Both the position numbers and the translations under genes were made by a program. DNA of 64,000 nt from the NCBI RefSeq assembly GCF_001046635.1, contig NZ_KQ130458.1, forward strand, positions 1-64,000, given 5' to 3'. This stretch comes from Novosphingobium barchaimii LL02 (GTDB taxonomy: Bacteria; Pseudomonadota; Alphaproteobacteria; Sphingomonadales; Sphingomonadaceae). Shown piece by piece: positions 9,851 through 44,498 of this stretch; position 1 is the first letter of the stretch, and each line of letters opens with the position of its first letter. The notes under the pieces are model-generated. The model was not told the DNA's origin. It did no database searches and was given only the letters and a program-made list of their open reading frames with translations.

Positions 9851-9853
9851 ACA

Positions 9854-11933: not shown

Positions 11934-13815
11934 GCGCCGGCCTCCGCGACCTCGACCACTGCGATACCGACGAGCATTGGCTCGTCAAAGCTCAGGTCAT
12001 TTTCCTTACGGTTTATCTGCTCCAGCTTGAGATCCATCCGGGCGAGAAAGGCATTCAGCTTGCCCTGTATGGCATATGTGATGTTCATTTTCTTGGCGCT
12101 GCCCGAGGCGCGCAATTCGCGGATCTGGGTTTCGGCCCTGCTTTTCTCTCGTTCCTTGTGCTGCGTGATGAGCGCGCGCTGGGTGGCGACGTCGTCATAG
12201 TGCCGGGCGGCTTCCGCCCCTTCGAAGTCGGTTCGGCGTTCCTTGAGTGCCGGCAAAAGGTGCGATGCCATCACATCCGCGACATGGGGTAGATCGGCCG
12301 GTTCGAGATGTCGGAGCTGAGGGGCGCTGGCCAGCGATTCCATCAGCACTTGCTCGACGGCATCTTCTTCCAAGCTTGTGCCGGTGGCGAAGTCGACGCC
12401 AGCGAATGCTAGGCGATCGACAGGCAAAAGGCCATCGATCGACCAACGCTCGACTGCCACGACATATCGGCCTACGGGCAGAGGCCAATGCGGCTGATGA
12501 GGCACGCGATATGCGGTTACGGGCCGGGGCGCGACACCGACCTGCCGACCGTCGAGGAGCTGGGCGCAAAAGCGCGCCAGCGGATGGGTCATCGGAATGG
12601 CTTCCAGATTGCGATGGCGCAGCGGGTCTGGGTTGCTGCCGAACACGGCTTTCACGCCGCTGGCGGCGTCTCGAGAAAAGCGGGTCGGGTAGCGCCGGGC
12701 TTTCAGATTCCGAAAGTGCCCAAATTCGGCCTGCGCTCTTGGCGACAGGCGAACGTCATATGCTTCGATGTCGATGCCGTTGATCGGTTCGAAGCGCGTG
12801 CCCTCGAACGTATTGACCAGAATGCCGGCGATATAATCGCGCAGGTCGCTTTCGGTCAGCCGCTTGTGCGGCGCATAGGCTTCCTTGACCTTCTGAAGAA
12901 TGCTGTCGCCATGCGCCACCAGTCCAGGGGCTTCCCGCTCAAGCTCCTCTGCCTGCATTTTCCTCTGCTCTGCAGCCTGGATAGAGCGATCGAATTCACG
13001 TGCCCGTGCCTCTGGAGAAAGCTCGGGGTTGGTCAGGATGAATTCGATGTCGCGGATGATCTCACCCAGGATGGGTTCGAAGTCGCCCAGCGTCTCCTGG
13101 ATGATCCCCAGCCTCAGATAGAGCCGGTCATAGACCTGCTCTTCGATCGTTTCAGCGGCGATCAGATTGATGATGTCGATTGATGGCGATCGCTGCCCGA
13201 TACGGTCGATACGACCGATCCGCTGCTCCACCTTCATGGGATTCCAGGGCAGGTCCCAATTGATCAGAATGCGACAGAATTGAAGATCGAGGCCTTCACC
13301 GCCGACCTCGGACGTCAGCAGGATCGAGCCTGCGGGAGCGTCGGCAAAACGCGAGACGATTTCCTGGCGGTCAGCTTTGACGCCGCCATGGAGTTCCATG
13401 ATCGCAAAGCCGGCAGCCTGGAGCTTCGCAGCGAGATAGCTGATCGTGCGGCGAAAGCTCGAGAAGACGATGAACTTTTGATCGGGGTCCCGCTCGCGCA
13501 ACTGGCATAGCCAATCGAGCAGCTTTGCAAGCTTGGTATCGGCGGCTTCCAGTCCCGCTAGAACGGCGGGATCATCGCAGATTTCTCCAAGCGCGCTAAT
13601 CAGCGGGCCTGGCAACGCTCCAGGGGGTGATGCATCGTCCTCCTCGTCGAGCGTGAGGAAACCGCTTCTTTCGCCCCAATGGCGATAGGCAGTGGCCAGG
13701 CTCGAGGCGAGGAGTCGCTGGGTTTGGGCGAGCAGGAACCGCTCGTTGATGTCGTTGGCAAAGGCATATGCCTCGATGCGCTGTGTCGCCCGCTGATAGA
13801 AGGCGTCTTCCGCCT
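11930..13815 (-). pseudogene. SNF2-family helicase, C-terminal part (severed by IS6100 inversion)
   Basis: This 627-codon fragment holds the second RecA-like domain of a SNF2/RapA-type ATPase: FIVFSSFRRT (motif IV region), SILLTSEVGGEGLDL (motif V) and QRIGRIDRIGQ (motif VI arginine fingers). A long C-terminal region follows. It starts at the IS6100 boundary within EDAFYQRATQRIE. The continuation of the frame into IS6100 antisense is artefactual. The missing 412 residues, with motifs I-III, lie at 29239-30474 on the plus strand. Joined with one 8-bp duplication copy the frame is 3,114 nt, exactly 1,038 codons including the stop. The stop overlaps the Hsp70-like gene by 4 bp. Confidence 0.93.
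13808..13815. repeat. IS6100 8-bp target duplication, copy 1 (TTCCGCCT)
   Basis: TTCCGCCT abuts the left end of the first IS6100. Its exact reverse complement, AGGCGGAA, abuts the second IS6100 at 30467-30474. IS6-family elements make 8-bp duplications; an inverted pair marks an inversion between copies. Confidence 0.92.
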
Positions 13816-14695
13816 GGCTCTGTTGCAAAAATCGTGAAGCTTGAGCATGCTTGGCGGAGATTGGACGGACGGAACGATGACGGATTTCAAGTGGCGCCAT
13901 TTCCAGGGTGATGTGATCCTGTGGGCGGTGCGCTGGTATTGTCGCTATCCGATCAGCTATCGCGACCTTGAGGAAATGCTGGCGGAACGCGGCATTTCGG
14001 TCGACCATACGACGATCTATCGCTGGGTCCAGTGCTACGCCCCGGAGATGGAGAAGCGGCTGCGCTGGTTCTGGCGGCGTGGCTTTGATCCGAGCTGGCG
14101 CCTGGATGAAACCTACGTCAAGGTGCGGGGCAAGTGGACCTACCTGTACCGGGCAGTCGACAAGCGGGGCGACACGATCGATTTCTACCTGTCGCCGACC
14201 CGCAGCGCCAAGGCAGCGAAGCGGTTCCTGGGCAAGGCCCTGCGAGGCCTGAAGCACTGGGAAAAGCCTGCCACGCTCAATACCGACAAAGCGCCGAGCT
14301 ATGGTGCAGCGATCACCGAATTGAAGCGCGAAGGAAAGCTGGACCGGGAGACGGCCCACCGGCAGGTGAAGTATCTCAATAACGTGATCGAGGCCGATCA
14401 CGGAAAGCTCAAGATACTGATCAAGCCGGTGCGCGGTTTCAAATCGATCCCCACGGCCTATGCCACGATCAAGGGATTCGAAGTCATGCGAGCCCTGCGC
14501 AAAGGACAGGCTCGCCCCTGGTGCCTGCAGCCCGGCATCAGGGGCGAGGTGCGCCTTGTGGAGAGAGCTTTTGGCATTGGGCCCTCGGCGCTGACGGAGG
14601 CCATGGGCATGCTCAACCACCATTTCGCAGCAGCCGCCTGATCGGCGCAGAGCGACAGCCTACCTCTGACTGCCGCCAATCTTTGCAACAGAGCC
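13816..14695 (+). mobile_element. IS6100, copy 1 (880 bp)
   Basis: The terminal inverted repeats GGCTCTGTTGCAAA are at 13816 and (inverted) at 14682-14695. Length is 880 bp, as for IS6100. The left flank is helicase DNA. The right flank (TTGATGTG) enters a decapitated MarR-type gene. The encoded transposase is identical to that of the second copy at 30475-31354, which is in the opposite orientation. Confidence 0.96.
13841..14641 (+). CDS. tnpA: IS6100 transposase (IS6 family)
   Basis: DDE transposase of IS6100. The recognised protein runs from MLGGDWTDGT or MTDFKWRH to HHFAAAA (264 or 254 aa, depending on the start; 266 aa from the first ATG). A helix-turn-helix lies near EMLAERGISVDHTTIYRW (about 44-62). 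The catalytic acids are in WRLDETYVKV (first Asp), NTDKAPSY (second Asp) and NNVIEADHGKLK (Glu). It acts by copy-in replicative transposition, which makes cointegrates, adjacent deletions and inversions. Confidence 0.96.
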   Translation: MSMLGGDWTDGTMTDFKWRHFQGDVILWAVRWYCRYPISYRDLEEMLAERGISVDHTTIYRWVQCYAPEMEKRLRWFWRRGFDPSWRLDETYVKVRGKWTYLYRAVDKRGDTIDFYLSPTRSAKAAKRFLGKALRGLKHWEKPATLNTDKAPSYGAAITELKREGKLDRETAHRQVKYLNNVIEADHGKLKILIKPVRGFKSIPTAYATIKGFEVMRALRKGQARPWCLQPGIRGEVRLVERAFGIGPSALTEAMGMLNHHFAAAA

Positions 14696-15010
14696 TTGAT
14701 GTGCATTAAGGCGCAGATGGGAATGGCGCGCGCCGCCGACGTGGCCGAAATCATGAACCTTGCGCCCCGCACGGTGACGGAGGCGCTGGACGGGCTGGAG
14801 CGCGAAGGGCTGATCCAGCGCGTGCCGGACAAGGAGGATCGGCGGGTGAAGCGGCTTGCCATCACGCCCGCCGGAGAGGCGGCGGTGGCCGTGACGGAAC
14901 CCCTGCGGGTGGAATTGGGGGCAAGGCTTTTGAACGCCCTGACGCCGTCCGACAGGCGGCATTTTCATGCTGCGCTGCAAAAATTACTGCAGGGACTGGC
15001 TGACGCCTGA
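14696..15010 (+). pseudogene. MarR-family regulator fragment (5' end removed by IS6100)
   Basis: The open frame runs directly out of IS6100 and retains about 104 residues: the winged-helix recognition part (AEIMNLAPRTVTEALDGLEREGLI), the wing (DKEDRRVKRLAITPAG) and the C-terminal dimerisation helix. The first 35-45 residues normal for MarR proteins are missing, together with the promoter. The apparent TTG/ATG starts at the junction have no ribosome binding site, so it is probably not expressed as a working regulator. Confidence 0.82.
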
Positions 15011-15085
15011 CCTTTGATCCGCGCGATATTCTCTGTTATCATCGCCCGGTCGACCGGCATAAGCCCGGCGGCAGGGGAGAGTGCT

Positions 15086-15193
15086 ATGGAGCGTATGCAT
15101 TACAGCATGTGCCAATGCAGCGTCGGGTTGCTGAGCCTGTGCAGCGCATCGGCCCTGGCGTTGACCGGCACGCTCTATATCCTGCTCCACTGA
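15086..15193 (+). CDS. Small hydrophobic protein (35 aa)
   Basis: A short frame starts MERMHYSMCQC and contains one hydrophobic segment (about residues 14-34) ending ILLH. A good ribosome binding site (AGGGGAGA, 6-7 nt before the ATG) supports translation. Three cysteines lie near the N-terminal side of the membrane segment. It may be a small membrane protein; function unknown. It sits between the MarR fragment and the convergent ilvD. Confidence 0.45.
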   Translation: MERMHYSMCQCSVGLLSLCSASALALTGTLYILLH

Positions 15194-15257
15194 TCGCCTG
15201 CGGGCGAGCATCGGCAAGGCCGCGCCGCATCGTCGAATGCGGCGCGCAAGCTGAATA

Positions 15258-17111
15258 TCAGTCCTTTTCCACCTGGCCCACGTCCCGCACCGCGCCGCGC
15301 GCCGCATTGGTGGTAAGCGCCGCATAGGCCCGCAGGGCAGGGGAAACATTGCGCTTGCGACCGAGCGGCTTCCACGCCTTCGCGCCGCGTCCCTCCATCT
15401 CCGCCTTGCGGGCCGCGATGACGGCGTCGTCCAGGTCCAGCCTGATGACGCGATTGGGAATGTCGATGAGGATGGGGTCGCCGGTCGCGACCAGCGCGAT
15501 CAGCCCGCCCTCGGCCGCTTCGGGCGACACATGGCCGATGGAAAGGCCCGACGTGCCACCGGAAAAGCGCCCGTCGGTGATGAGCGCGCAGGCCTTGCCC
15601 AGCCCCTTCGACTTCAGATAGCTGGTCGGATAGAGCATTTCCTGCATGCCCGGCCCGCCCTTCGGCCCTTCATAGCGGATGACGACGACATCCCCCGCCT
15701 TCACCTCATTGCCCAGGATGCCGGCGACCGCCGCATCCTGGCTTTCATAGACGCGGGCCGTGCCGTGGAAGGTCAGGATGGACTCGTCCACTCCGGCCGT
15801 CTTCACGATGCAGCCTTCCGGCGCGATATTGCCGAACAGCACGGCCAGCCCGCCATCCTTGGAGAAGGGGTGCTCCGCGCTGCGGATCACGCCGGTCTCG
15901 CGGTCGGTGTCCAGTTCCTCCCAACGGGCGTTCTGGCTGAACGCCTGGGTGGTGCGGACGCCGCCGGGGGCGGCGCGGAAGAAGTTGCGGACCTCCTCGC
16001 TATTGGTGCGGCCGATGTCCCAGCGGTTGAGCGCGTCGCCCAGCGTCGGCGCATGGACGGTCGGCAGGGTCGCGTCGACCAGCCCGGCGCGTTCCAGCTC
16101 GCCCAGGATCGCCATGATGCCGCCCGCGCGATGGACGTCCTCCATATGCACGTCATTCTTGGCCGGGGCGACCTTGCAGAGGCAGGGAACGCGCCGTGAC
16201 AGACGGTCGATGTCGGCCATGGTGAAATCCACCCCGCCCTCATAGGCGGCGGCGAGCAGGTGAAGCACCGTGTTGGTCGACCCGCCCATGGCGATGTCCA
16301 GGCTCATCGCGTTCTCAAACGCGGCGAAGGTGGCGATGTTGCGGGGCAGGGCCGACGCGTCATCCTGCTCGTACCAGCGCTTGGCGAGGTCGACGATGGT
16401 GCGGCCCGCCTCCAGGAACAGCTTTTCGCGGTCGGCATGGGTGGCCAGCGTCGACCCGTTGCCCGGCAGCGACAGCCCCAGCGCTTCGGTCAGGCAGTTC
16501 ATCGAATTGGCGGTGAACATGCCGGAGCAGGAACCGCAGGTCGGGCAGGCGGACCGCTCGATGACCTTCACTTCCTCGTCGGTATAGCTGTCGTCGGCCG
16601 CGACGACCATGGCGTCGACCAGGTCCAGCGCGACGGTCTTGCCGCGCAGCTCGGTCTTGCCGGCCTCCATCGGACCGCCCGAAACGAAGATGGTCGGGAT
16701 GTTGAGGCGCATCGCGGCCATCAGCATGCCGGGCGTGATCTTGTCGCAGTTGGAGATGCACACCAGCGCGTCGGCGGTGTGGGCGTTCACCATATATTCG
16801 ACGCTGTCCGCGATCAAGTCGCGGCTGGGCAGCGAATAGAGCATGCCGTCATGGCCCATGGCGATGCCGTCGTCGACCGCGATGGTGTTGAATTCCTTGG
16901 CGACGCCGCCCGCCGCCTCGATCTCCCTCGCGACAAGCTGGCCCAGATCTTTGAGGTGCACATGCCCCGGCACGAACTGGGTGAAGCTGTTGGCGATGGC
17001 GATGATGGGCTTGCCGAAATCCTCGTCCTTCATGCCGGTGGCGCGCCAGAGGCCGCGCGCGCCCGCCATGTTGCGGCCGTGGGTGCTGGTGCGTGAACGA
17101 TAATGCGGCAT
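15258..17111 (-). CDS. ilvD: Dihydroxy-acid dehydratase
   Basis: This 617-aa Fe-S dehydratase of valine, leucine and isoleucine synthesis converts 2,3-dihydroxy-3-methyl acids to 2-keto acids. The signatures CDKITPGML (about 123-131) and [14 protein letters not shown] (about 194-207), and the C-terminal [15 protein letters not shown] motif, carry the cluster cysteines and metal/substrate ligands. Length is standard. It is a chromosome-type biosynthetic gene in an otherwise mobile setting, divergent from the LysR gene 92 bp away. Confidence 0.97.
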
Positions 17112-17203
17112 GGGTCTGTCCTCGGTTCCTCTCCGGCCCGCCTTACGCCATTGCGGACAGGTTGTGAAATATATTGCGGGCGCGCTATAAGGTCGCAGGA
17201 TGA

Positions 17204-18118
17204 ATGAATGACATGGATCTGCGCCAACTCAACCATTTCCTCGCCGTGGCGGAGGAACTGCATTTCGGCCGCGCCGCCGAACGGCTGGGCATGACCCAGC
17301 CGCCGCTCAGCCAATCCATCATGGCGCTGGAGCGCGAACTGGGCGCGCCTCTCTTCACCCGGACCAAGCGGCAGGTGGCGCTCACCCCCTTTGGACGGCA
17401 ATGGCTGGAGCATGTCCGGCCGGCCGTCGGCGCGGTGGCCGACCTGGCTGCCGCGGCGCGGCGGCTGCGGGCGGGGACGGTCGGGCGGCTTGCCCTCTCC
17501 TTCGTCAGTTCGGCGGACTACAGCATCCTGCCCGCGCTGGTGCGGCGCTATGCCAATGCCTTTCCCGACGTCGACATGACGCTGATGGAAGCGACGAGCG
17601 ACGTGCAAGTGGAGGCGCTGGTCGAAGGGCGGACCGACGCCGGCCTGCTGATCCCGCCCGCGTCCGGCCTGCCCGCCGCCATCGATTATCGCCCGTTGCT
17701 GCGCGAGCCGCTGGTCGCCGCCGTGCCGGAGAATTGGGCGAAGGACGGCCGCCTGCTGGTGGAGGAGGGCAGGCTGACGGGAGAGAGCTGGCTCGACCAG
17801 CCGTTGCTGCTTTTCCCACGCCACGTTTCGCCCACCTTCCACGACCTGATCGTCGACCATTATCGGGTCAGGGGGCGGGAGCCGCATGTGCGCCAGCGGG
17901 CGATCCAGATGCAGACGATCATCAGCCTGGTGTCCGCCGATATGGGATTGGCGCTGGTCCCCGCGTCCTTGCGCAACCTTGCCCGGACGAGCGTGCGCTA
18001 CCTGCCGCTGGCCGGCCCCGCTCCCCTGCTGGAAACCGGCCTGGCATGGCGCCGGTCGGACGAGGCGCCGACGCTGCGCGCCTTGCTGGGCATCGCTCTC
18101 GACATGGCCGAGGGCTGA
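17204..18118 (+). CDS. LysR-family transcriptional regulator
   Basis: This 304-aa protein has an N-terminal winged helix-turn-helix ([33 protein letters not shown]; about 6-45) and a periplasmic-binding-protein-like effector domain (about 90-295). It is transcribed divergently from ilvD, the usual arrangement when a LysR protein controls its neighbour, although control of ilvD is only inferred. An ATG at 17204 or 17213 could be the start; the AGGA at 17197 is spaced poorly for either. Confidence 0.92.
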
Positions 18119-18124
18119 CCGCCT

Positions 18125-18922
18125 TTACCGGACGACGGCGCGGGTATAAAGGTGCCAGGTCGCATAGCCCAGCACGGGCAGCACCACCGCCAGCCCCACC
18201 AGCGCGGGCAGGGCGCCCAGCACCAGCAGCGCCACCACGATCAGGCCCCAGGCCGCGACCGTCACCGGATTATGCCATGCCACGCGGCAGGATGTGCGCA
18301 CCGCGACGCCCCAGTTGACCGGCTTGTCGACCGCCATGGGAAAGGAAACGACGCTGACCGCCAGCGTCAGCAGGGCGAAGCCGAAGCCGACCAGATTGCC
18401 GACCACGATCATACGCCAGCCCTGCGACGTGCCGAACAGGGCCGAAAGGAAAGCGCCCGGGGAGGATGTCGACCCAGGCACATTTTCCAGCGTCGCATGA
18501 TAGATGAACCAGGCCGCCGCCATCCACGCCATGAACAGCAGCGCCAGCACGCAGGTCAGGTCGAACAGGGCGGAGCCGCCCGGCTTGCGGATCACGTCCA
18601 GGAAATGGCGCCAGCGCGCGTCCAGCCCCGCCTCCCGCCGCCGCGCCAGTTCGTAGAAGCCGCTGGCGAAGGCTGGCCCCAGCAGGATCGCGCCCGCCAC
18701 CAGCGGGAAGATCAGCGGCAGGATCGACATCTGGCTGGCGGACATGATCGCCAGCGCGACAATGATCGGATAGATGAAGCCGATGAACAGCAGATCGCCC
18801 CTTTTGGCGAGGAAATCGTCCCAGCCCTGGCGCAGGGCGATGCGCAGATCGTCGAACGTGATGGTGCGGACGGAAATATCTTTCCCGGCGGACGCCGCCT
18901 GGGACGGGTGAGCCATTGCCAT
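18125..18922 (-). CDS. DUF2189 membrane protein
   Basis: This 265-aa inner-membrane protein has about six hydrophobic segments. The DUF2189 hallmark is at the N terminus: VRTITFDDLRIALRQGWDDF followed by a first membrane hairpin. AGGAGA 7 nt upstream supports the ATG at 18922 over longer alternatives. It converges on the LysR gene with 6 bp between stops. Function unknown in the family. Confidence 0.85.
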   Translation of the reverse strand: MAMAHPSQAASAGKDISVRTITFDDLRIALRQGWDDFLAKRGDLLFIGFIYPIIVALAIMSASQMSILPLIFPLVAGAILLGPAFASGFYELARRREAGLDARWRHFLDVIRKPGGSALFDLTCVLALLFMAWMAAAWFIYHATLENVPGSTSSPGAFLSALFGTSQGWRMIVVGNLVGFGFALLTLAVSVVSFPMAVDKPVNWGVAVRTSCRVAWHNPVTVAAWGLIVVALLVLGALPALVGLAVVLPVLGYATWHLYTRAVVR

Positions 18923-19271
18923 GGTGCGCTCTCCTGACCGAACGCCATGAAGCCCTTTATTCCGATCTGTCCTCTGTCGGGACATGCGCGCCTTCCGGGC
19001 GAGCATCTCTCGGCATGAGGGATGCGCCTCATGGCCAATGGCGGCATCCTACACCCGGAACACCGCATCCGCCAGTCCCTCCGATCCCGGGCCGCAACGA
19101 CATTTCCGCCTTCGCTCATGGGTGGTCCTGAACCGGAACGCATAGCGTTCTTCTCGGCCATCTTTGCGAAGCGGGTTAACCCATGGCAATGAAAATCTGT
19201 TTTCGGAACCGGGACAAGGAACGGGAATCCCCTCCTCGCGCTTATCGGTGAACAGGCGGACAGGAGCGATC

Positions 19272-20273
19272 ATGGACAAGAGCCGCAGGAGCACGCGAAC
19301 GCCCTGCACGCATATCGTCATCACGGGCGCGTCGAGCGGCATAGGCCAGGCCACGGCGGAGGCTTTCGCGGGCCGGGGCGCAAAGCTGGTTTTGGCGGCG
19401 CGGGATGGCGAGGCGCTGGAAGCCGTGGCGGAAAGGTGCCGACGGGCCGGCGCGGAGGTGCTGACCGTGCCGCTCGACATCGCGGATGCGGAGGCGGTGC
19501 GGCAACTTGCCCAGTCGGCGCGCGATTTTTGCGGATCGATCGACCTCTGGTTCAGCAATGTCGGCGTCGGGGCCGTCGGCAAGTTCGTCGACGTCCCGAT
19601 CGAGGCGCACGAACGGACGATCCGCTCCAACCTCATCGGCCATATGAATGACGCCCATGCGGTGCTCCCGATCTTCATGGCGCAGCGGCATGGGATCTTC
19701 GTCAACATGATCTCGCTCGGCGGATTGACCGGCACGCCCCATGCCGCCGCTTATGGAGCGAGCAAATTCGGCCTGCGCGGCTTTTCGGAGGCACTGCGCG
19801 CCGAAATGACGGAATGGCCGGACATCCATATCTGCGACGTCTATCCGGCCTTCGTCGACACGCCCGCGCTGCGCCATGCCGGCAATTATACGGGCAAGGC
19901 GCTGACCGCTCCACCGCCCATGCTGGACCCGAGGAGGGTGGCGGCCGCCATCGTCGGCCTGGCCGACCGGCCCCGCGACAGCGTGCCGCTGGGGGCGCCG
20001 ACCTGGTTCGTGCGGTTCGCCCATCCGCTTGCGCCCTCGCTGCTCAGCCGGATCGGGAATCTGGCCTTCGGGCGCTACTTCGCCTCGGCGGAACGCGCGC
20101 CGGTCTCGCGGGGCAATCTGTTCGATCCGCCTCGGGACAACGGCGGCATCGATGGCGGCTTTCGCAAGCCCGCGCCGGAACGGCGGAGGGCGGTTCTGTC
20201 GGTGGGCGCAGGCGTGGCGGCCGGGGTTCTGCTCCTTGGCCTGCTGTCGGCGCGACGTTCGTTCGGGCGATAG
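19272..20273 (+). CDS. Short-chain dehydrogenase/reductase
   Basis: This 333-aa NAD(P)-dependent oxidoreductase has a Rossmann motif TGASSGIG (about 17-24) and a catalytic YGASK (Tyr/Lys, about 158-162). A hydrophobic tail ([13 protein letters not shown]) probably anchors it in the membrane. The start at 19272 is preceded by AGGAG. The stop is 4 bp before the next ATG, so it forms an operon with the flavoprotein downstream. The substrate is not predictable. Confidence 0.93.
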
Positions 20274-20277
20274 CGGA

Positions 20278-21192: not shown

Positions 21193-21198
21193 GCTGGC

Positions 21199-21462: not shown

Positions 21463-21590
21463 CGCTTCATTACCCTCTGATGACTGTTATTCTGCAACGG
21501 CCCAATTTCAGGGCCGTTCCCGCAAATCCGCCTCCATATAAAACTATATCAGCCCGCGCCGCCGGGTCGGACGGCGGAAAATGACGGAGG

Positions 21591-21765
21591 TGACACTTTA
21601 CCGAGTTCCGGCCATGTGCGCCAAAGTGTCACGGTTGATTTCGGGGAGGGGAGCGGAATGGGCCATCCCTGCGACATCGCCGGCATAATGACCGCTGAGC
21701 GATATAAATTTGCCTATGTCGTGAAAAGTGCCGGCGAAATCCCGCGCCCGTCGGGTAAAGTGTCA
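21591..21765. repeat. Inverted GGTAAAGTGTCA repeats (three related sites)
   Basis: GGTAAAGTGTCA occurs at 21754-21765 on plus and at 21591-21602 on minus. A third site with core AAAGTGTCAC is at 21623-21632. Together with the first it makes a GTGACACTTT...AAAGTGTCAC dyad with 23 bp between arms. All lie in the 373-bp gap between the lipoprotein gene and the gene at 21836. They may be operators or iterons for that protein. Nothing else is seen in the gap. Confidence 0.5.
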
Positions 21766-21835
21766 TCCGTGCTTTTTGTTGGAGGATCGCCGCAGAGGGG
21801 ATTCACACGGACTCAGCATGTGCTAGATTCCGCAT

Positions 21836-22384
21836 ATGTTCTACCAGCCCGATCTCTTCGAGCAATCTCCGCCGCCATCCAGCCCGTCATCGCGACGCGG
21901 GGCGGCCGCGCTTCCGGACCTTGTCGAACGCATATCGACCGTATCGAAACGGCCGCGCTATGCATTGCTGGTGCTGAAGCTGATCGCGCAGGAAGCCGGT
22001 TCTCATGACAGCGTCGGTCCCTATGTCGGAAGCGGCAAGGGGAGGGTGCCGGTGCGCGACTGGCTTTGCCAGGCGCTCGCGCCCCTTGCGCAACGGGATT
22101 GTCGGCGGCGCGCCATGATCGACGCGGTACGCGCCGATCTCATCTCGCGGGCAGGCATGGTCGACCCGGAAGAGATGGAACGCCGGCTCGAACAGGAGGT
22201 TCGGTCGCGGATCTTGCGGTCCGGCCGGACGAATGTGAGCCGGGTCGTGTCCGACCTGGTCCGCGCCGGCCTGCTGCGCCGCCACTATCAGGGGTATCGG
22301 GTCGATCATCCCAATCGCGGCGCCCAGCGCGAAGCCGTCTATACGATCACGGCCGAGGCGAAGCGGGCGCTCCAGCGCCATTGA
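21836..22384 (+). CDS. Hypothetical protein, possible winged-helix DNA-binding protein
   Basis: This 182-aa protein has no family I recognise. The first 30 residues are Pro/Ser-rich. The C-terminal half (about 105-180) has a winged-helix look: SRVVSDLVRAGLLRRHYQGYRVDHPNRG, then AVYTITAEAKRAL, like the wing of MarR/PadR or replication-initiator domains. It follows a gap with repeated AAAGTGTCA motifs, so autoregulation or origin binding is possible but unproven. Confidence 0.6.
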   Translation: MFYQPDLFEQSPPPSSPSSRRGAAALPDLVERISTVSKRPRYALLVLKLIAQEAGSHDSVGPYVGSGKGRVPVRDWLCQALAPLAQRDCRRRAMIDAVRADLISRAGMVDPEEMERRLEQEVRSRILRSGRTNVSRVVSDLVRAGLLRRHYQGYRVDHPNRGAQREAVYTITAEAKRALQRH

Positions 22385-22561
22385 GGGACATGGGATGACC
22401 GGAGTTCAGCAATCCTCGTCTGGCAGGCGTCGGGTTCTTGCCATTGAGGGCGGAACTCCCATCCTCTCCCTCCCGTCCGCACATTGTCCGGATTTAACAT
22501 AAGTAACATTATCAACCTTTTATCGTTTTATATCAATCATTTATCATCCGACGAGCAAGGG
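22385..22561. other. Gene-free AT-rich seam
   Basis: The stretch at about 22493-22552 is strongly AT-rich (runs such as AACATAAGTAACATTATC and TTTTATCG) in an otherwise GC-rich window. It separates the chromosome-like genes on the left from the mobilisation/partition genes on the right. It may be a recombination junction or an origin-like AT-rich element. No gene is seen. Confidence 0.4.
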
Positions 22562-22765
22562 TCATTCCGGTGAATTGATATCCGCCCAATAGGTGATCTC
22601 CTCGAAAAGGTGCATGCCTTCCGGATCTTCCCATCCCTTACGCCCGTCATCCCACCGGCCGATTACGGGACGATCTCCTTCCCAGAGCAGCATGAGGCGA
22701 CCGTCTTTTCGGTCGTCGGGCATCGCGCCAATCGGGTCCCACGGGATGTATTTCGCTGTGATCAC
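22562..22765 (-). CDS. Small hypothetical protein
   Basis: A GTG at 22765, with AGGAGA 6-7 nt upstream, gives a 67-aa acidic, Trp-rich protein (ITAKYIPW at the N terminus, RWDDGRKGWEDPEG in the middle). Longer starts lack a binding site. No known domain recognised. Confidence 0.55.
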   Translation of the reverse strand: MITAKYIPWDPIGAMPDDRKDGRLMLLWEGDRPVIGRWDDGRKGWEDPEGMHLFEEITYWADINSPE

Positions 22766-22953
22766 GCAAAATCTCCTCGCATGCCGGCGGCGCGCGAGTT
22801 CATTCACGCTGCGCTGCTCCAGCAACGGCATTGAAGATCGAATCGACGATGTCTAGAAATAAAGTGCCCCGACGGTTTGCAAAGCAGGGACCGCCGGGGG
22901 ATACCCAGCTCATATGGCGCAAGGGTGCCTAAAAATCAAGTGAAAAGGTTCCC

Positions 22954-23631
22954 GTGCCAACATTCGTTCATGCCTTGTCCGCTGACCGCTTCGACACTTA
23001 TCTGAAGTGGGCCGGAGCCGATCAGACGCTCGCAGAGCGCCTGTACACCTATAATGTGCAGCTTTCCGCAGCCCTCTATGGCCCTCTACACATGCTCGAG
23101 GTCGTGCTGCGTAACATGGCGGACGCGCGGCTTGCGGCCCAACATGGCGCCGCCTGGATCGACGATCCTGCGATCCTTGTGACGAACTATCAGACGGGCG
23201 CAATCGCAAAAGCACGGCAAACGCTGCAGAAAGACGGGAAGGCAGCGACCCGTCCGCAGATCGTAGCGGAGTTGAACTTCGGCTTCTGGGCGTCACTCTT
23301 CGGCCCCAAGTCACACCACCTCTGGCAAAGCCTGCGACCCATCTTTCAGGCCAAAGGCGTACAGCGCGGTGTGATCGCGCGGGACTTGCGCGACCTGCGT
23401 ATATTGCGCAACCGCGTCGCCCACTATGAACCCATCATCGCGCTTCCGCTCGCGCAGCGCTATGCGAGTATCACGACCTTGACGGGCTGGCTGTCTCCAA
23501 GCGCCGCGACATGGATCGCCAAGTATTCGACATGGCCGACACTTTATCCGGCCGTACCCATCCTTGTGCCCGACCCTGCATCTGGAGATTTGCTGGTGGC
23601 GCCAGCGGCGCTACCCTTTCTCCCTGCATGA
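22954..23631 (+). CDS. Abi-family (HEPN) abortive-infection-like protein
   Basis: This 225-aa protein matches the Abi_2-like pattern: FGFWASLFG in the middle, then LRDLRILRNRVAHYEPI (about 155-171), whose R-x4-H (RNRVAH) is the HEPN ribonuclease motif. Such proteins usually cleave RNA during phage attack or act as toxins. Start: GTG at 22954 after AAAAGG. Its 3' end overlaps the convergent AbiEi-like gene by 21 bp. Confidence 0.83.
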   Translation: MPTFVHALSADRFDTYLKWAGADQTLAERLYTYNVQLSAALYGPLHMLEVVLRNMADARLAAQHGAAWIDDPAILVTNYQTGAIAKARQTLQKDGKAATRPQIVAELNFGFWASLFGPKSHHLWQSLRPIFQAKGVQRGVIARDLRDLRILRNRVAHYEPIIALPLAQRYASITTLTGWLSPSAATWIAKYSTWPTLYPAVPILVPDPASGDLLVAPAALPFLPA

Positions 23632-24243
23632 CCTATCTCTCCGCGACGCCTGGATCTTGAGGACAATGTCGCCCATCCAGCCCGGCATGGCCGAGCGGGC
23701 CGCGACCAGCGCGCGCGTACCGGCATCGTCGAGGCGCGCGGCGAAGCGCCCGATCACATCCGCGTCGATATTGCCCTTCCCTAGATGCGCGAGCGCCTGG
23801 ACGATCGCATTCACAGACTCCGGCGCGTCGAGCACCGGCGCGCGGCTGTGCTTCAAGGTAACGCTGCGGCCGCCAGCCTTGGCGGTGCGGGTGCGGCCGC
23901 TGGTGGCGTAGCTCACCCGGGCGGGCACCTGCGTCGAGATACCAAGGCTATTGGCCGCCGCCGCTCCCGACGGCGCGAGCGCATCGCCGCTCTGCGCGGA
24001 GAGCGCCTGGGCCAGCTGCCCGGGATCCGGGCTCAGGGCACCAAGCTTGTCATGCTGGCGGGGATAGTCGTAGAGACCGCGGCCGATCCGACGGATGTCA
24101 CCGGCATGCGCGAGACGCGACAGCGCCATGTCGACCGAGCCGCGCGTACCGAAGTCGACGAACTGCTTGGGCGTAAACACCCAGCCACAGCCCTTGCCGC
24201 GCACACGCTTCATAATCCGGTCAGCCACCGCAGACATGTCCAT
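23611..24243 (-). CDS. DUF6088 / AbiEi-like antitoxin-type protein
   Basis: This 210-aa protein has an N-terminal winged helix (FTPKQFVDFGTRGSVDMALSRLAHAGDIRRIGRGLYDYP, about 24-62, shown here as a span) typical of AbiEi/DUF6088 transcriptional antitoxins. A less conserved C-terminal domain follows. AbiEi normally precedes an AbiEii nucleotidyltransferase toxin, and none is seen here; the only neighbour with toxin character is the convergent HEPN gene. Confidence 0.75.
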   Translation of the reverse strand: MDMSAVADRIMKRVRGKGCGWVFTPKQFVDFGTRGSVDMALSRLAHAGDIRRIGRGLYDYPRQHDKLGALSPDPGQLAQALSAQSGDALAPSGAAAANSLGISTQVPARVSYATSGRTRTAKAGGRSVTLKHSRAPVLDAPESVNAIVQALAHLGKGNIDADVIGRFAARLDDAGTRALVAARSAMPGWMGDIVLKIQASRRDRSCREKG

Positions 24244-24382
24244 GCTCCTGTCTGTTAGATAGTAGCATGGTTTTTTCTAACAAGCCATGGCCACAGAAAG
24301 CGCCAGTTCTCTCGATTTTCCAAGACATTCCAGCACATGGTAGTGGGAGCATCCCTTCGCAAGATCAACCGCCCCATGCAAA

Positions 24383-25489
24383 TCAACGCTCCCGCCCACG
24401 CTCCGGCGCTGGCCGCTCGGGACCAGCTCCACCCTCCAGCTCGCGCGCCGGCTCTGTCGCTTGCCGCCCCTGCATCATCTCGCGGGCCAGGGCCAGACGT
24501 CGGGAGACCGCCGGCGGCATAGCCGCCAGGAAACCCGCAATTTCGTCGGAAAGCGCCTGGTCGTCGGCCTCGCCGGTGCGTGCAAGCGCCACTGCCGCCT
24601 CCGCATAAGCACCGCGTATCTGCTTCTGGCGAACCAGCGCCATCACGTCTTGCGGCCGCCGTTCCTCATCGCGCGCGCGCGCAAAGGCCCGAGCGCGCAG
24701 CACGTTGAGTTCATCCATATTGAGCCGGCGCCCCTCCTGACCGATCCGAGCATCGAGATGCAGCGCTGCTGAGCGCACACGCTTTTGAACGTGACCGCGT
24801 GCGCGTCTGGGCGTCGCCTCAGCCGCGATGCCGCGCACCCGTAGCTCATGCGCGAATGTCTCTCGCATATGATGGAGGTCGGCCTTGCGCGGATTGAACC
24901 GCGTGCCGTCCGCACCTTCGGTGGCCACCGTCAGATGGACATGCGGATGATCGGTATCTGTATGGAGCGCCAGCATATAGGCGTGATTGTCCTCGAACAG
25001 GATCCGGGCGAACGCCTGGGCGGCGTCCTGCAGCGTCTCGGGATCGGTCGAACCGCCGGGCATGGAGAGGACCAGCGACAGCGAGGTCGGCCGATCGCGG
25101 CCATGCTCGTTCATCGCCTCGTCGAGCATGGTCCAGTCCTGCGCAATCTCCTTCAGGCGCTTGGGATCGTCAATGATCTCACCCTCGCTCGAGCGCACCG
25201 CGAGCTTCCCGTGCCGAGCAACATAGTCGAAATGCTCGGATAGATGATGCGCGCCATATTGCTTGCCCGAGACCTTGACCATGACCTCCGGGGCCTTGCG
25301 CACGATCCGCTCGAGCTTGGCCCGAGCCTCGGACTGGCTCAGCGGCGCGGCGCGCGCCTGCCCTCCCCGGCCCGATCCGCCCCGTCCGACGCGCACATAA
25401 GCCCCCCGCAGTATCCGTTTCCCACCGGTGGGCGGCCGCCATGCCTCCATGAGGCTGGGCAGCGGCAGGATGCCCTCCTCCTCAAGCAT
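24383..25489 (-). CDS. MobA/VirD2-type relaxase
   Basis: This 368-aa protein would nick the transfer origin and pilot single-stranded DNA in conjugation. The HUH-type metal triad is visible in HTDTDHPHVHL (about 200-210). The C terminus is charged. The start at 25489 (MLEEEGILPL) overlaps the MobC stop by 8 bp; longer frames run into mobC. There is no coupling protein or type IV secretion gene in the window, so the element is mobilisable, not shown to be self-transmissible. Confidence 0.88.
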   Translation of the reverse strand: MLEEEGILPLPSLMEAWRPPTGGKRILRGAYVRVGRGGSGRGGQARAAPLSQSEARAKLERIVRKAPEVMVKVSGKQYGAHHLSEHFDYVARHGKLAVRSSEGEIIDDPKRLKEIAQDWTMLDEAMNEHGRDRPTSLSLVLSMPGGSTDPETLQDAAQAFARILFEDNHAYMLALHTDTDHPHVHLTVATEGADGTRFNPRKADLHHMRETFAHELRVRGIAAEATPRRARGHVQKRVRSAALHLDARIGQEGRRLNMDELNVLRARAFARARDEERRPQDVMALVRQKQIRGAYAEAAVALARTGEADDQALSDEIAGFLAAMPPAVSRRLALAREMMQGRQATEPARELEGGAGPERPAPERGRER

Positions 25490-26018
25490 CAAGGCTGTCC
25501 CAATAGGCAAGATCGCCCTTGAGCGCGGCGCCGAGACCGGCAAGCGCGATCCGGATTTCCGTCCGAAAGCTTGCCACCCGCGCCGCCTCGCGCGCGACAT
25601 CGAGCCCGGATTCGACCATCACCGAAGCATTGAGCGCACGCGTTGCCTGATTGAGATTGATGCCGATCCGGTTGAGCTCGCGCCACGCCTGAGCCACTGC
25701 CGCCCGCTCTTCAAGCGGCAGCGGCGCCGCAGAATGCAGGCGGCGCCGCACAAGCCTCGTCACCCAGTCGGTGCGCTTCATACCCAAAGCATCGGCCTCG
25801 GCATCCAGCGCGGCAATTTCCGCATCGGTCAGCCGGATCTCAAACCGCCGTGTTGTTCGCTCCCGCCGGCGGACTGGTCCCGGCGTCCCGCCCGCCTCCG
25901 CGTCCACTGCAGTCATGACGAGGCGCCGCAGCAAAGCCGAGCGGCCACCGGCGCTGTCCGCCGCAGCATCGAAGCGCTGGGCGATGTCATCGTCGAGACG
26001 GAAGGTGAAGACGGGCAT
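25482..26018 (-). CDS. mobC: MobC-like relaxosome accessory protein
   Basis: This 178-aa protein starts with a ribbon-helix-helix-like segment (FTFRLDDDIAQRFDAAA). A second DNA-binding part follows (FEIRLTDAEIAALDAEADALG), then the MobC signature near LNRIGINLNQATRALN (about 120-135). It would open or mark oriT for the relaxase. It is encoded immediately upstream of the relaxase and overlaps it, the usual mob arrangement; oriT is expected in the upstream gap 26019-26158. Confidence 0.82.
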   Translation of the reverse strand: MPVFTFRLDDDIAQRFDAAADSAGGRSALLRRLVMTAVDAEAGGTPGPVRRRERTTRRFEIRLTDAEIAALDAEADALGMKRTDWVTRLVRRRLHSAAPLPLEERAAVAQAWRELNRIGINLNQATRALNASVMVESGLDVAREAARVASFRTEIRIALAGLGAALKGDLAYWDSLDA

Positions 26019-26091
26019 GCATCAAAGGCTATTGTCATACATCCCCGGCGTCACGCCTATCCGGCCCTCACCTTCACTCAACTCATCTGAT

Positions 26092-26109
26092 AGTCTGCTT
26101 GAGCAGACT
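26092..26109. promoter_or_regulatory. AGTCTGCT-N2-AGCAGACT dyad upstream of mobC
   Basis: A perfect 8-bp inverted repeat with a 2-bp spacer, 73 bp upstream of the mobC start. The same 18 bp occurs as its reverse complement at 28284-28301, upstream of parA. It probably binds one regulator (MobC, ParB or another) at both sites, or marks oriT or parS. Confidence 0.65.
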
Positions 26110-26158
26110 TCGACACTATTTGGTAAAATGCGCCTATCATTTACGCCTGATCCACGAA

Positions 26159-26181
26159 GGGCGGCGCCAACGGCGCCGCCC
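26159..26181. repeat. GC-rich hairpin between mobC and parB
   Basis: GGGCGGCGCC / GGCGCCGCCC, a perfect 10-bp stem with a 3-nt loop, next to the parAB terminator. It may be part of oriT or a second terminator. Confidence 0.5.
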
Positions 26182-26201
26182 CAGCTCGGACCTACGGAAA
26201 A

Positions 26202-26227
26202 GGCCGCGCCCCGAAAGGGGCGCGGCC
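26202..26227 (-). terminator. Rho-independent terminator after parB
   Basis: An 11-bp perfect stem (GGCCGCGCCCC / GGGGCGCGGCC) with a tetraloop is followed on the minus strand by TTTT. It lies 42 bp past the parB stop and would end the leftward par transcript. Confidence 0.8.
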
Positions 26228-26269
26228 GACATCCACACGAACAGGATATGCGAACGCGGAGGAAGAGGA

Positions 26270-27202
26270 TCAGAGCATCGCGGCGTCGGGACGTCCCTCA
26301 GACGCGGCGCAAAGTCGTTCGGTCGCCACCTCTTGCCGAGAACCATCGCCGAAGATCACGACAACACGCGGGCCAAGGACAAGACGCGCGGGACGGCCAT
26401 CGACTTCAACGGCAAGGCTGGCCTCTGGCGTTTGCTCCCCTGGTCGCGCGACTGGCTCAGTCCCTGCCCGCGGTTGGGGACGGGCGACGGTCACCGCCGC
26501 GGCCTGCATCGGCGCTGCCTCAATGCTGGGAACGTCCGTCTTACTCTTCAGCCCGGCAATGAACCGCGCGCCTTCCGCCAATGTCGCGCCGCTCTCATCC
26601 CAGGCGCCCACATAGGCCTCGACTTCCGCAGGATAATCCCTGGCTGTGCGATGCAGGTCATAGAGCAGCCGGATCGGCGCGCGCGGGAGCACCTCCCTGA
26701 GATAGGCAGGCATGTCACCATAGGCTGCATAGAGCGAGACGAACTGCTTGGAGCGGCCCAGCGCAGCGGCGATTTCGACCTGGCTCATGCCGCCCTTGAG
26801 CATACGGGCAATCGCATGAGCGAGCTCGACCGAAGACAGGTTCGCACGCTGATCGTTCTCAACGATCTGATCGGCGAGCAGATGGGTTCCCTCCCCCTCG
26901 GCCACGACGATCGCCGGGATCGTCACCCGGCCCGCGAGCTGGGAGGCACGAAAGCGCCGCTCGCCCAAACGGATGCGATGCAAGCCGGCGGCGTCGGCGG
27001 GCGCAACCGTGATCGGCTGCAAGACCCCGCGGGCCGCTATGGAGGCCGCAAGCTCGGCCAGGGCGTCATCGTCGAAACTGCGCCGGGGATTGCCGGGGTC
27101 GGGGATCACCCGCTCCAAAGGAATATCCTCGACCCGGCGCGCCATTTCATGCGCGCCGACGAGCAGGCCAAACTCCTCGATGCGTTCATCGAACTTACCC
27201 AT
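26270..27202 (-). CDS. parB: ParB-family partition protein
   Basis: This 310-aa protein has an N-terminal ParB/Srx domain with IPLERVIPDPGNPRRSFDDDAL and GERRFRASQLAG, which is the CTPase/arginine motif region. A helix-turn-helix follows (MSQVEIAAALGRSKQFVSLY, about 145-164) and a short C-terminal domain. It binds centromere sites for plasmid segregation. The ATG at 27202 overlaps the parA stop by one base; longer frames run through parA. Confidence 0.93.
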   Translation of the reverse strand: MGKFDERIEEFGLLVGAHEMARRVEDIPLERVIPDPGNPRRSFDDDALAELAASIAARGVLQPITVAPADAAGLHRIRLGERRFRASQLAGRVTIPAIVVAEGEGTHLLADQIVENDQRANLSSVELAHAIARMLKGGMSQVEIAAALGRSKQFVSLYAAYGDMPAYLREVLPRAPIRLLYDLHRTARDYPAEVEAYVGAWDESGATLAEGARFIAGLKSKTDVPSIEAAPMQAAAVTVARPQPRAGTEPVARPGEQTPEASLAVEVDGRPARLVLGPRVVVIFGDGSRQEVATERLCAASEGRPDAAML

Positions 27203-27966
27203 CAGGTGGCGGCCGCTGGCGCTGAACCAAGTCGCCGTTCGATCTCGGCGAGGATCGGCCGAATTTCCTCGGCCGCCGCCTTGGCGCCGCCACCACTCTC
27301 CATCCAGACCGGTCGATGATTTTCCGCCGCATGCTTGTAGGTCGGTCGCGCCTTGATGAACGCAGGGAACATCAGCCGCTCGCCCACCGCGTGAGCGAGC
27401 TTGACGGCATTGTCTATTTCGCGCCGGTCGAACGGGTTGACCATCGATGGCAGCAATCCGAGGAAATCGATCTTGCGCCCTGCCCTCGCCGCCTCGGCCT
27501 TGCGCAGCGCGGTCAGCAGCATCTTGGCGCATTCGACCGAATCTTCGGCGACCTGGACCGGCGCGATCACTGCATCGGCGACCGCGAGAGCGCTCAGGGT
27601 CAGCTCATCCCATTTGGGACCGGTATCGATCACGCAGAGGTCGAAATGGGGCGCAAGCGCAGGAAAGCGGCCGAGAAAGTCGCGCACATCCTGCGCCGAC
27701 TTGATCATCTGCAAACGCTGGTCGGCGGCGAGCAAAGTGAGCCCGACCCGGCCATCGGCGGCAAACGCCGCCGATGGATCGAAGAGATCGGCCGCGAAGC
27801 CACCCGGCCGCTCGCGGGCCAGACGGCGCGACGAACTGCCTTGCGGGTCCAGGTCGACGAACACGACCCGGCGTCCTGCCGGTTCGGCCAGATACCAGGC
27901 GAGATGCGTGGCGAGGAAGGTCTTGCCTACCCCGCCCTTGAGAAGGCTCACGGCGATCGTTCTCAT
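27202..27966 (-). CDS. parA: ParA-family partition ATPase
   Basis: This 254-aa protein has a deviant Walker A KGGVGKTFLATHLA (about 10-23), a Walker A' region VFVDLDPQGSSS and a Walker B region CVIDTGPKW. There is no N-terminal DNA-binding extension, so it is the short type whose promoter is usually controlled by ParB. Start: ATG at 27966; TGATG overlap with parB. It segregates the replicon together with ParB. Confidence 0.94.
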   Translation of the reverse strand: MRTIAVSLLKGGVGKTFLATHLAWYLAEPAGRRVVFVDLDPQGSSSRRLARERPGGFAADLFDPSAAFAADGRVGLTLLAADQRLQMIKSAQDVRDFLGRFPALAPHFDLCVIDTGPKWDELTLSALAVADAVIAPVQVAEDSVECAKMLLTALRKAEAARAGRKIDFLGLLPSMVNPFDRREIDNAVKLAHAVGERLMFPAFIKARPTYKHAAENHRPVWMESGGGAKAAAEEIRPILAEIERRLGSAPAAAT

Positions 27967-27979
27967 CGGTGCGGCCAGC

Positions 27980-28156
27980 TCAACAATAGTCGTCCGGACC
28001 ATCGCGTAGATTGCGCTCATAATGGTCACGCGATGACCAGTCGCCGCCACCGCCAATGCCGGGACCGACATAGCGGAACAGGTAGACGGTGAGCGCAAAA
28101 CAGCCGAACGCAAAGAGGATCGCGTGATCGGGATGGGCGGCGAAATAAGCGGACAT
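27980..28156 (-). CDS. Small membrane protein upstream of parA (58 aa)
   Basis: The frame begins MSAYFAAHPDHAILF, has one membrane segment (about 10-28) and a polar Gly/Asp-rich tail ending DGPDDYC. GAGGAG lies 6-8 nt before the ATG, and the stop is 13 bp before parA, so it leads the par operon. No family is recognised. Its conserved-looking position suggests a plasmid-maintenance or membrane-tethering role (inference). Confidence 0.6.
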   Translation of the reverse strand: MSAYFAAHPDHAILFAFGCFALTVYLFRYVGPGIGGGGDWSSRDHYERNLRDGPDDYC

Positions 28157-28283
28157 GACGGTAGCTCCTCAAACGGTCTGATCCCGCGTCGGCTCACAGC
28201 TTTGCACTGGCCGCACGGGGGCGACGCTCCAGTGCGCCCTCCCCTCCTCAAGCGCGCTTGGCGCTTGGAGATCCTTTGCGCGC

Positions 28284-28301
28284 AGTCTGCTCAAGCAGAC
28301 T
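28284..28301. promoter_or_regulatory. AGTCTGCT-N2-AGCAGACT dyad upstream of the parAB operon
   Basis: Same 18-bp dyad as at 26092-26109 but in reverse orientation, 127 bp upstream of the first gene of the par operon. Likely operator or centromere-like site. Confidence 0.65.
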
Positions 28302-28304
28302 TTT

Positions 28305-28338
28305 CACGGCCATCCCCCCGGTCAGGGGGATGGCCGTG
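28305..28338. terminator. Strong hairpin after the DUF3768 gene
   Basis: A perfect 14-bp stem (CACGGCCATCCCCC / GGGGGATGGCCGTG) with a 6-nt loop lies 5 bp past the DUF3768 stop. There is no T-run on the minus strand, so it may terminate inefficiently or insulate the adjacent operator at 28284. Confidence 0.5.
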
Positions 28339-28342
28339 CCGA

Positions 28343-28735
28343 TCAGTATTCTTCGGCGAGTAGGATCGTCAGAACCCGAGTGGTGACGTCGGGATTGGCT
28401 GGATCGGGTGAGCCCCAGGCAAGCTCGAGATCATAATAGTCGATCTTCCAGTAGAGAATGGCGCTGCCATATTCGAAGCGACCAAAATCATGCTCGCCCA
28501 ATGGATCGTTGTCGGAATTGAAGCTGTCATAGTTTCGCACCGTGCGCAGGATCTCAGCGCGTCTGCGAAATCCGCGGAAGAGGGAAACATCCCCGACCAG
28601 CGCGGCAACGCCCGCGGTCATGACGATCTGGTTTCGGCCAGGGCTGCAAATAGATCTCCGCAGGCTGTCATTCAGTGCGGCGATGCGGTCGATCCGCTCG
28701 GCTCGGTCTGCCGATTGTTGAGAAGGCTGCGGCAT
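28343..28735 (-). CDS. DUF3768 protein
   Basis: This 130-aa protein has the family core: RIAALNDSLRR, then YDSFNSDNDPLGEHDFG (about 70-86), WKIDYYDLELAWGSPDP (about 97-113) and TRVLTILLAEEY at the end. The family is common on alphaproteobacterial plasmids and genomic islands. Function unknown; no catalytic site is evident. Confidence 0.85.
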   Translation of the reverse strand: MPQPSQQSADRAERIDRIAALNDSLRRSICSPGRNQIVMTAGVAALVGDVSLFRGFRRRAEILRTVRNYDSFNSDNDPLGEHDFGRFEYGSAILYWKIDYYDLELAWGSPDPANPDVTTRVLTILLAEEY

Positions 28736-29238
28736 GGCTGTGACTCCGGTCTGGATCAGCCCCGCCCATCGGGGCCTTCCGACAGGCGCCCCAAGGGCGG
28801 CGTCATAGCGGGGTCGTGCACCCGGAGGGTCGCAACGCAGTGGAGAAGCCCGCTATGCGGGCTTGCTCGGCCCCGCGCGCCGACCAGGAAGCCGACAACG
28901 GACAAGGAACCTGATGGCGTTGCTCCTTCCGGTTGCACCCAGCAGACAGACGCTGACCATCGCCGAGCCGAGCGGTCCATCGGCAGCGACAGAATTTGTC
29001 ACCCATGCAAGCTATAATAGCCCCACCCAGGACGACGAAGGATCGACTCGATGAATTTCCTGCATGCCCGAACGGTCCGGGAAGTTACTTCCGCCCGTCG
29101 CAAGAGAGTGCGGCGCACATCTATCAATGCCAGCATCTACCAAAGTGAATGGCGCAGATTTTGAATGATTTAACATTCGCCTGACACTTGACGCTGTCGG
29201 CTTTCTATTGATCATCCTGTTAGGGGGGAAGTTTCACT
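28736..29238. other. 503-bp gene-free region upstream of the helicase
   Basis: No credible gene on either strand. It contains a hairpin AAGCCCGC-TAT-GCGGGCTT at 28846-28864 and an AT-richer stretch at 29130-29215, before a strong ribosome binding site (AGGGGGGAAG) ahead of the helicase ATG. It probably holds the divergent promoters of the helicase operon and the DUF3768 gene. Confidence 0.55.
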
Positions 29239-30474
29239 ATGTTCGAGGCAGGCGAACGGGTACGGCTGAAAAACGATCCGGCGGTTGTCGGTGTCGTAAC
29301 CGACCGGCCGCCCGAAGAACGAGCAGGACGCACCTTCTTTCAGATTGAGCTTCCGACAGGCCGCCGAAGTCTGCCGGCAAACCAGCTCGAACATGTCCTG
29401 GCCGCCCCCGATGCGCTCGTGGATCTGCGAAACGGCAAACTCTCCGCCCCAACCGATTTGCGACGCGCTCTGACCCATCTGCGCATGACGGGCCGCCTTG
29501 CCGACATGATCTACAGCATGGGCGCGACGAACACCGAGTTTCACGCTTACCAGTTCAAGCCGGTCCTCAAGCTCCTGAACGCGCCCTCTCGTGGCTTGCT
29601 CATCGCCGATGAAGTCGGTCTCGGTAAAACCATCGAAGCAGGGCTCATTTGGACAGAGCTGGTGGCGCGGAATCACGATTGCCGTCGACTGCTGGTGGTC
29701 TGCCCCAAGCCGCTCGTCGAAAAATGGCGGGCTGAGCTGCGCAACAAATTCAATGTCGACGCGCGTATCTGCGGTGCCGCCGAGTTGCTCGACACGCTGC
29801 GTGACGACCAGGAGCGTCGCGAGGGTTTTCAGGTCATCGCATCGCTGTCCGCCATCCGTCCGCCGCGCGGGTGGGACGATCCTGACGAGCCCGCCTCGGG
29901 TGCGCGCGCAGACCTCGCGCGGTTACTCAATGATTCGGCTCAGGATCTGTTCGATCTCGCGATCTTCGATGAGGCACATCATCTGCGCAATGCCGAGACG
30001 ATGAACCACAAGCTGGCAAAGCTTGTGACCGATGTGAGCGATTATTCGCTGTTTCTTTCGGCCACCCCGATCAATCTGCGCGCCAACGACCTGCGCGCGC
30101 TTTTGAAGCTCATCGATCCGGACACGTTCGAACGGGAATATCTCTTCGATATCCTCCAGGAAGAAAATGTCCCGCTGGTGCGGGCTTGGGAAGCGGCACG
30201 CGACACGCGCGTGCCGATGCACGAATTGGCGGAGCTTGTCGGGGATCTCCCCGAGGGACGGGTTCTCAAGACCGGCGAACGGCTGAAACGCCTGCGCGAA
30301 GAGCTCGAAAAAGGCATCGTCGATACCCCGGCAAACCGCGTGAAATTGGCAGCGCGGATCGAAGAGATGTCGCTGCTGGGATCCACGATCAATCGTACGC
30401 GACGGCGCGATGTTGCGGAATTCAAGGTCGAGCGCCGCCCCCAGACGGTAAAATGGCCGATGAATGAGGCGGAA
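29239..30474 (+). pseudogene. SNF2-family helicase, N-terminal part (severed by IS6100)
   Basis: This 412-codon fragment has a small N-terminal beta-rich domain (about 1-55, ERVRLKNDPAVVGVV) and then the first RecA-like domain. Motif I is ADEVGLGKTIEAG (about 121-133), motif II FDEAHHLRN (about 242-250) and motif III LSATPINL (about 273-280). It ends at NEAE, where IS6100 begins; the last residues before the stop are IS-encoded. The rest of the protein is at 11930-13815 on the other strand. An intact start and ribosome binding site mean a truncated, motor-dead protein may be made. Confidence 0.93.
30467..30474. repeat. IS6100 8-bp target duplication, copy 2 (AGGCGGAA)
   Basis: Exact reverse complement of 13808-13815, abutting the second IS6100. 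With one copy removed, the helicase frame NEAE-DAFYQ is restored. Confidence 0.92.
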
Positions 30475-44482: not shown

Positions 44483-44498
44483 ACGATCCCTTATTGGT

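Follow-up and report, generated by a model that had tools for sequence, protein, structure and literature searches.

How did the two halves of one helicase gene come to lie far apart on opposite strands, each of them ending at a copy of the insertion sequence IS6100? The question is raised by a stretch of 64,000 nucleotides of Novosphingobium barchaimii LL02 (contig NZ_KQ130458.1, positions 1 to 64,000), hereafter called the window, for which a preliminary description had proposed a single helicase gene split by an IS6100-bounded inversion. The comparison with relatives supports this proposal, since the gene is whole and collinear in them, and confirms that the two halves are parts of one SNF2-type, DrmD-like helicase gene. 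We consider it probable that one replicative 'in trans' event of IS6100 both split this gene and inverted 15,779 bp.

Results

The coordinates of the features are collected in Table 1. Neither half of the helicase gene contains an internal stop, and against the PADLOC profile of DrmD (PDLC02623, 1040 positions) the N-terminal part matches positions 4-408 and the C-terminal part positions 414-1039. The summed lengths of the halves minus one 8-bp copy come to 3114 nt, that is, 1038 in-frame codons including the stop (1037 aa), as the preliminary description had calculated. This is also the annotated length of the uninterrupted gene on plasmid pSF1 of Sphingobium fuliginis ATCC 27551 and on plasmid p1 of Sphingobium sp. 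CAP-1 (CAP-1 p1), and in both the predicted uninterrupted homologue was found, with NEAEDAFYQ read across the insertion site.

The whole gene is also present in Novosphingobium colocasiae (L040) and on a Rhizorhabdus contig from a metagenome-assembled genome (MAG; L039, the same DNA as L117 of G001), and all four uninterrupted relatives carry AGGCGGAA only once at the site and are free of internal stops. The best 80 of the 236 helicase relatives confirmed in genome_contigs comprised 78 distinct ones, 76 of which align unbroken through residues 395-425, the position of the scar. The two exceptions are L108, which matches over a short part from residue 497 on, and L085, which matches only from residue 407; in the latter, a MAG contig, the frame at 1-2517 passes from an unrelated stretch directly into a helicase relative at that residue, and the contig is probably chimeric.

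Table 1. Positions in the window of the split helicase gene, the two IS6100 copies with their flanks, and neighbouring features.
Feature	Position	Strand	Description
Helicase, N-terminal part	29239-30474	+	Codons 1-412; Pfam SNF2-rel_dom; 3' end is one 8-bp target copy
Helicase, C-terminal part	11930-13815	-	Pfam Helicase_C; starts with the other 8-bp target copy
IS6100 copy A	13816-14695	+	880 nt; perfect 14-bp ends; IS6 transposase; 100% identical to annotated IS6100
IS6100 copy B	30475-31354	-	880 nt; exact reverse complement of copy A; perfect 14-bp ends
Target copy TTCCGCCT	13808-13815		Left of IS6100 A; reverse complement of AGGCGGAA
Target copy AGGCGGAA	30467-30474		Left of IS6100 B; single in the four uninterrupted relatives
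Putative donor flank TTGATGTG	14696-14703		Right of IS6100 A; inside truncated marR
Putative donor flank CGATTGGC	31355-31362		Right of IS6100 B; inside truncated heavy-metal ATPase gene
Inverted segment	14696-30474		15,779 bp; bounded by IS6100 A and B
marR-family gene	14696-15010	+	5' end cut off by IS6100 A; Pfam MarR; whole in pSRL1
Heavy-metal P-type ATPase gene, 3' remnant	31357-31629	+	At IS6100 B; fragment match to TIGR01512 and related models
587-aa gene	10170-11933		Directly after the helicase gene
IS21-type element (istA/istB)	7064-9853		Flanked by a 6-bp CTTCTT duplication (7058-7063 and 9854-9859)

The two IS6100 copies are the sole repeat pair of at least 100 nt reported by a repeat search of the window, and all four of their 14-bp terminal inverted repeats are perfect. 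The transposase matched NF033587 with 285.4 bits against a cut-off of 125, as well as Pfam DDE_Tnp_IS240, and the 880-bp length and the 14-bp ends agree with the sizes of IS6100 in a review of the IS6 family (PMC7986276). That the copies are opposite and that their 8-bp neighbours at 13808 and 30467 are exact reverse complements had been stated in the preliminary description, and both points held. The 8-bp target duplication expected of IS6100 is therefore present, with AGGCGGAA occurring twice, once in each orientation. The other two flanks, TTGATGTG and CGATTGGC, are unrelated, and a comparison of the flanks of both window copies revealed no direct 8-bp repeats at the marR and ATPase edges. 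Each copy is therefore bordered by the target on one side and by a donor flank on the other. The helicase parts adjoin opposite ends of the element: the left end of A borders the C-terminal part, the right end of B the N-terminal part. By their coordinates, marR and the ATPase remnant likewise lie at opposite ends.

A match of one named pair of 8-mers has a chance probability of about 1.5e-5 (4^-8). As a control, the flanks were compared for 12 IS6100 copies whose ends are intact, four each from the Sphingobium plasmids pSRL1, pCHQ1 and that of YC-XJ3 (the pSRL1 stretch covering all four of that record; copies with altered ends were left out). None of the 72 control pairs agreed, and of all 76 pairs compared the window pair alone matched. 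A direct 8-bp repeat was kept by none of the 12 control copies, as if most of them had joined in later rearrangements.

The inversion itself is seen in the comparison with the relatives. On pSF1 (L003), window positions 22487-30475 correspond to 12017-20009, and window positions 13815 down to 9854 continue from 20001 to 23962 without a gap, the overlap of the two matches at the join consisting of the 8-bp target and one chance base. The same join is found in the Rhizorhabdus MAG contig, in CAP-1 p1, where an IS110-family element is inserted upstream, and in N. colocasiae from 23642 on. From 14696 to 22536 the window is collinear with pSRL1 of Sphingobium indicum B90A at 98.4%. The ATPase remnant scores below the whole-protein cut-offs of TIGR01512 and the related models, and the gene is whole in pTSSC1 of Sphingomonas sp. 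CL5.1. No IS6100 occurs anywhere in the records of pSF1, CAP-1 p1 and pTSSC1. The separation of 15.6 kb given in the preliminary description stands only as an approximation: the inversion is there, with the length given in Table 1, and 16,659 bp separate the break points in the helicase gene. Orientation is relative, and on a circular plasmid the rest may equally be called the inverted part.

The divergence from pSF1 over 22487-30474 is uneven: the number of differences per 500 nt varies between about 1 and 31, with minima at 23000-23500 and 29000-29500, a pattern suggesting that these plasmids have recombined in patches.

Because its two helicase domains now lie on separate fragments, the helicase has presumably lost its function. 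Compared with pSF1, the N-terminal part differs at 16 of 1236 nt (15 synonymous changes and 1 non-synonymous) and the C-terminal part at 11 of 1886 nt (6 and 5); the changes private to the window number 4 synonymous and 0 non-synonymous in the N-terminal part and 2 and 1 in the C-terminal part. Decay after inactivation was dropped as a signal, since the private changes are too few, and nothing was drawn from the pSF1 counts either. An open frame of 897 aa at 11930-14623 consists of the reverse strand of IS6100 fused to the C-terminal part of the helicase, and annotation would probably take it wrongly for a gene.

Neighbouring genes

On pSF1, the helicase gene is the first in a cluster of four, followed by genes for proteins of 587 aa, 533 aa and 822 aa, the last with a PLD domain. 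The whole pSF1 helicase matches the PADLOC DrmD profile over its full length with 720 bits. The whole gene nevertheless falls below the NCBIfam score cut-off for DrmD of DISARM (DISARM_DrmD, 391.5 bits against 610). The core of DISARM consists of DrmA and DrmB (PMC9142583), and PADLOC gave no Drm match for the six other pSF1 proteins among the seven scanned, helicase included, of 34 annotated features. The label DISARM is unjustified for this gene, and a defence role is a guess by analogy.

The 587-aa gene is a recurrent partner of the helicase gene: a relative of it lies within 2 kb downstream on the same strand at 28 of the 78 loci, with identities down to 23%; in 75 of the 78, the sequence extends at least 1.5 kb past the helicase gene. 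The window protein itself has no Pfam match. Among 20 aligned relatives, weak Pfam matches were obtained to ALP_N (three), FtsA (two) and SLH (three), the SLH match having a better E-value (0.00021) than the actin-like ones, and the best match among solved structures was ParM (E = 0.02). Judged from such sequence likeness, the protein is possibly an actin-like ATPase. We recognised no description of this helicase-ATPase pair among the papers listed on the subject, and the text available of PMC12839542 does not describe such a pair. As a recurrent pair, the helicase and its 587-aa neighbour may merit a test of their own.

In the window, the IS21-type element separately breaks the third gene of the cluster, which is intact in pSF1 (L003 23714-25315). 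From 7064 to 9600 the element shows 100% identity to a copy carried by a plasmid of Novosphingobium sp. EMRT-2. One could imagine that the split gene heads an unnamed plasmid defence module that was disabled twice, by IS6100 and by the IS21-type element, since its loss was favoured; such a module would comprise the SNF2/DrmD-like helicase, the recurrent actin-like ATPase partner, the 533-aa protein and the PLD-domain protein. We regard this reading as unlikely.

Elsewhere in the window, a gene for an AbiEi-like antitoxin (23611-24243) adjoins one at 22954-23631 that weakly matches PD-T4-5/AbiD, and the corresponding DUF6088 gene of pSRL1 adjoins an AbiEii-type toxin gene instead. A metal-resistance block at 40005-58819, with copper resistance genes among the names, is 94.6% identical to the Sphingobium yanoikuyae plasmid NZ_CP053022. 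Positions 1-2559, with a reverse transcriptase/maturase gene, are 97.8-99.8% identical to three other Sphingobium plasmids among the matches listed.

Discussion

This comparison showed the gene in one piece with a single target in the relatives, a segment inverted with respect to them, and one target flank and one donor flank at each IS6100 copy. The following course of events would probably account for this arrangement. IS6100 would have lain on the same plasmid, with the truncated marR on one side, the truncated heavy-metal ATPase gene on the other and no direct repeats around it, and would have attacked AGGCGGAA within the whole helicase gene of its own molecule, in the 'in trans' configuration that leads to inversion. 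This single replicative event would have generated the second IS6100 in the opposite orientation, doubled the 8-bp target as inverted repeats, broken the helicase gene at codons 410-412 and flipped the intervening 15,779 bp.

The review of the IS6 family describes the product of intramolecular 'in trans' transposition as opposite copies of the element with inverted copies of the target, each copy having one original and one target flank (PMC7986276). It also describes the loss of flanking repeats when IS6-family elements transpose intramolecularly, which fits a donor copy that has no direct repeats. We prefer one replicative event because the flank signature matches the 'in trans' product and because none of the 12 control copies keeps direct repeats. 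As one event can do both, the order of insertion and inversion is not established, and the dating of the inversion after the insertion in the preliminary description does not follow. Dating by divergence of the insertion sequence was useless, since IS6100 copies are identical across many records. The fusion of two replicons in a cointegrate was rejected as the only event, since it would give direct copies and the window copies are opposite.

Several points weigh against a single replicative event. The donor state that it supposes, namely the ATPase remnant, IS6100 and marR in a row together with a whole helicase gene, was not met with: the exact words across the marR and ATPase junctions were absent from 14 genomes of the genus of the nearest genome, and no plasmid record among the matches listed covered 80% of the 160-bp queries for these junctions. 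Moreover, this route and an insertion followed by recombination leave identical DNA, with no sequence feature to separate them, as the preliminary description had rightly allowed in accepting either, and the identical 880-bp repeats may expose the arrangement to assembly error.

The first of these alternatives supposes that IS6100 initially entered the helicase gene and produced direct 8-bp repeats, an insertion that in the IS6 family consists of cointegrate formation and resolution, and then recombined with an older, opposite copy at marR/ATPase. It yields exactly the DNA seen, recombination between identical 880-bp inverted repeats would be expected to be possible, and the inversions by IS6100 in Pseudomonas aeruginosa are described by their authors as recombination between inserted copies (PMC10040652). 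However, it requires at least two events instead of one, and a lone insertion with direct repeats, such as its first step would leave, was seen in none of the 12 control copies, a small sample. Its intermediate was not found either: the exact 28-base word across the helicase-IS6100 junction was absent from genome_contigs and a 20-base word from the 14 genomes of the genus, and coverage of the 160-bp junction query reached 80% in no plasmid record; these searches, like those for the donor state, may leave out records of the window's own genome. We therefore rate this two-step route as the less likely of the two, albeit a serious alternative. An assembly artefact, in which IS6100 sits in the helicase gene without any inversion and the wrong flanks were joined at the identical copies, or in which both isomers coexist, is unlikely. 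The 880-nt repeats do exceed short-read length, and PMC10040652 reports repeat-bounded inversions to be undetectable by short-read assembly; yet the sequence bears no sign of a mis-join, and IS6100 inversions are real in other genomes, both of these being weak counterpoints. The preliminary description had also named naturally separate halves as a reading that would overturn its own, and to this L085 lends some colour as the one relative among 78 that matches only from residue 407 on. We consider it practically untenable, since L085 looks chimeric, L108 is partial, the other 76 relatives are continuous over the scar, and it is contradicted by the undivided gene of the four uninterrupted relatives.

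The locus provides a clean natural case in which IS6100 has both inactivated a gene and rearranged a sphingomonad plasmid, perhaps by a single event, with the target duplication legible at both ends and four uninterrupted relatives for comparison. For annotators, it shows that a fusion frame of IS6100 and helicase could pass as a gene, and for assemblers, that identical inverted repeats expose an arrangement to mis-assembly.

Among known systems, the 'in trans' transposition of the IS6 family, described for IS26 and IS6100 (PMC7986276), shares with the window the opposite copies bracketing an inversion, the inverted target and the mixed flanks; we found no differing feature from the model as described there, the event in the window being a reconstruction from sequence. 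In the literature on IS6100, Sphingobium and inversion, as far as its text was available, the word 'inversion' was met only in the title of a reference. In P. aeruginosa, inversions bounded by IS6100 in clone C and PA14 strains split warA, PA4029, mutS and rbsC (PMC10040652), and the available text of that report mentions neither 'target site duplication' nor '8 bp'. These inversions and the window are alike in having IS6100 at both borders and a gene in two distant parts, whereas the former are chromosomal, span 0.228 to 4.6 Mb and come from cystic-fibrosis isolates, and the latter concerns a 15.8-kb segment of a sphingomonad plasmid. Gene-splitting inversion by IS6100 is therefore already in print, and the window adds a further case with unusually complete comparative evidence.

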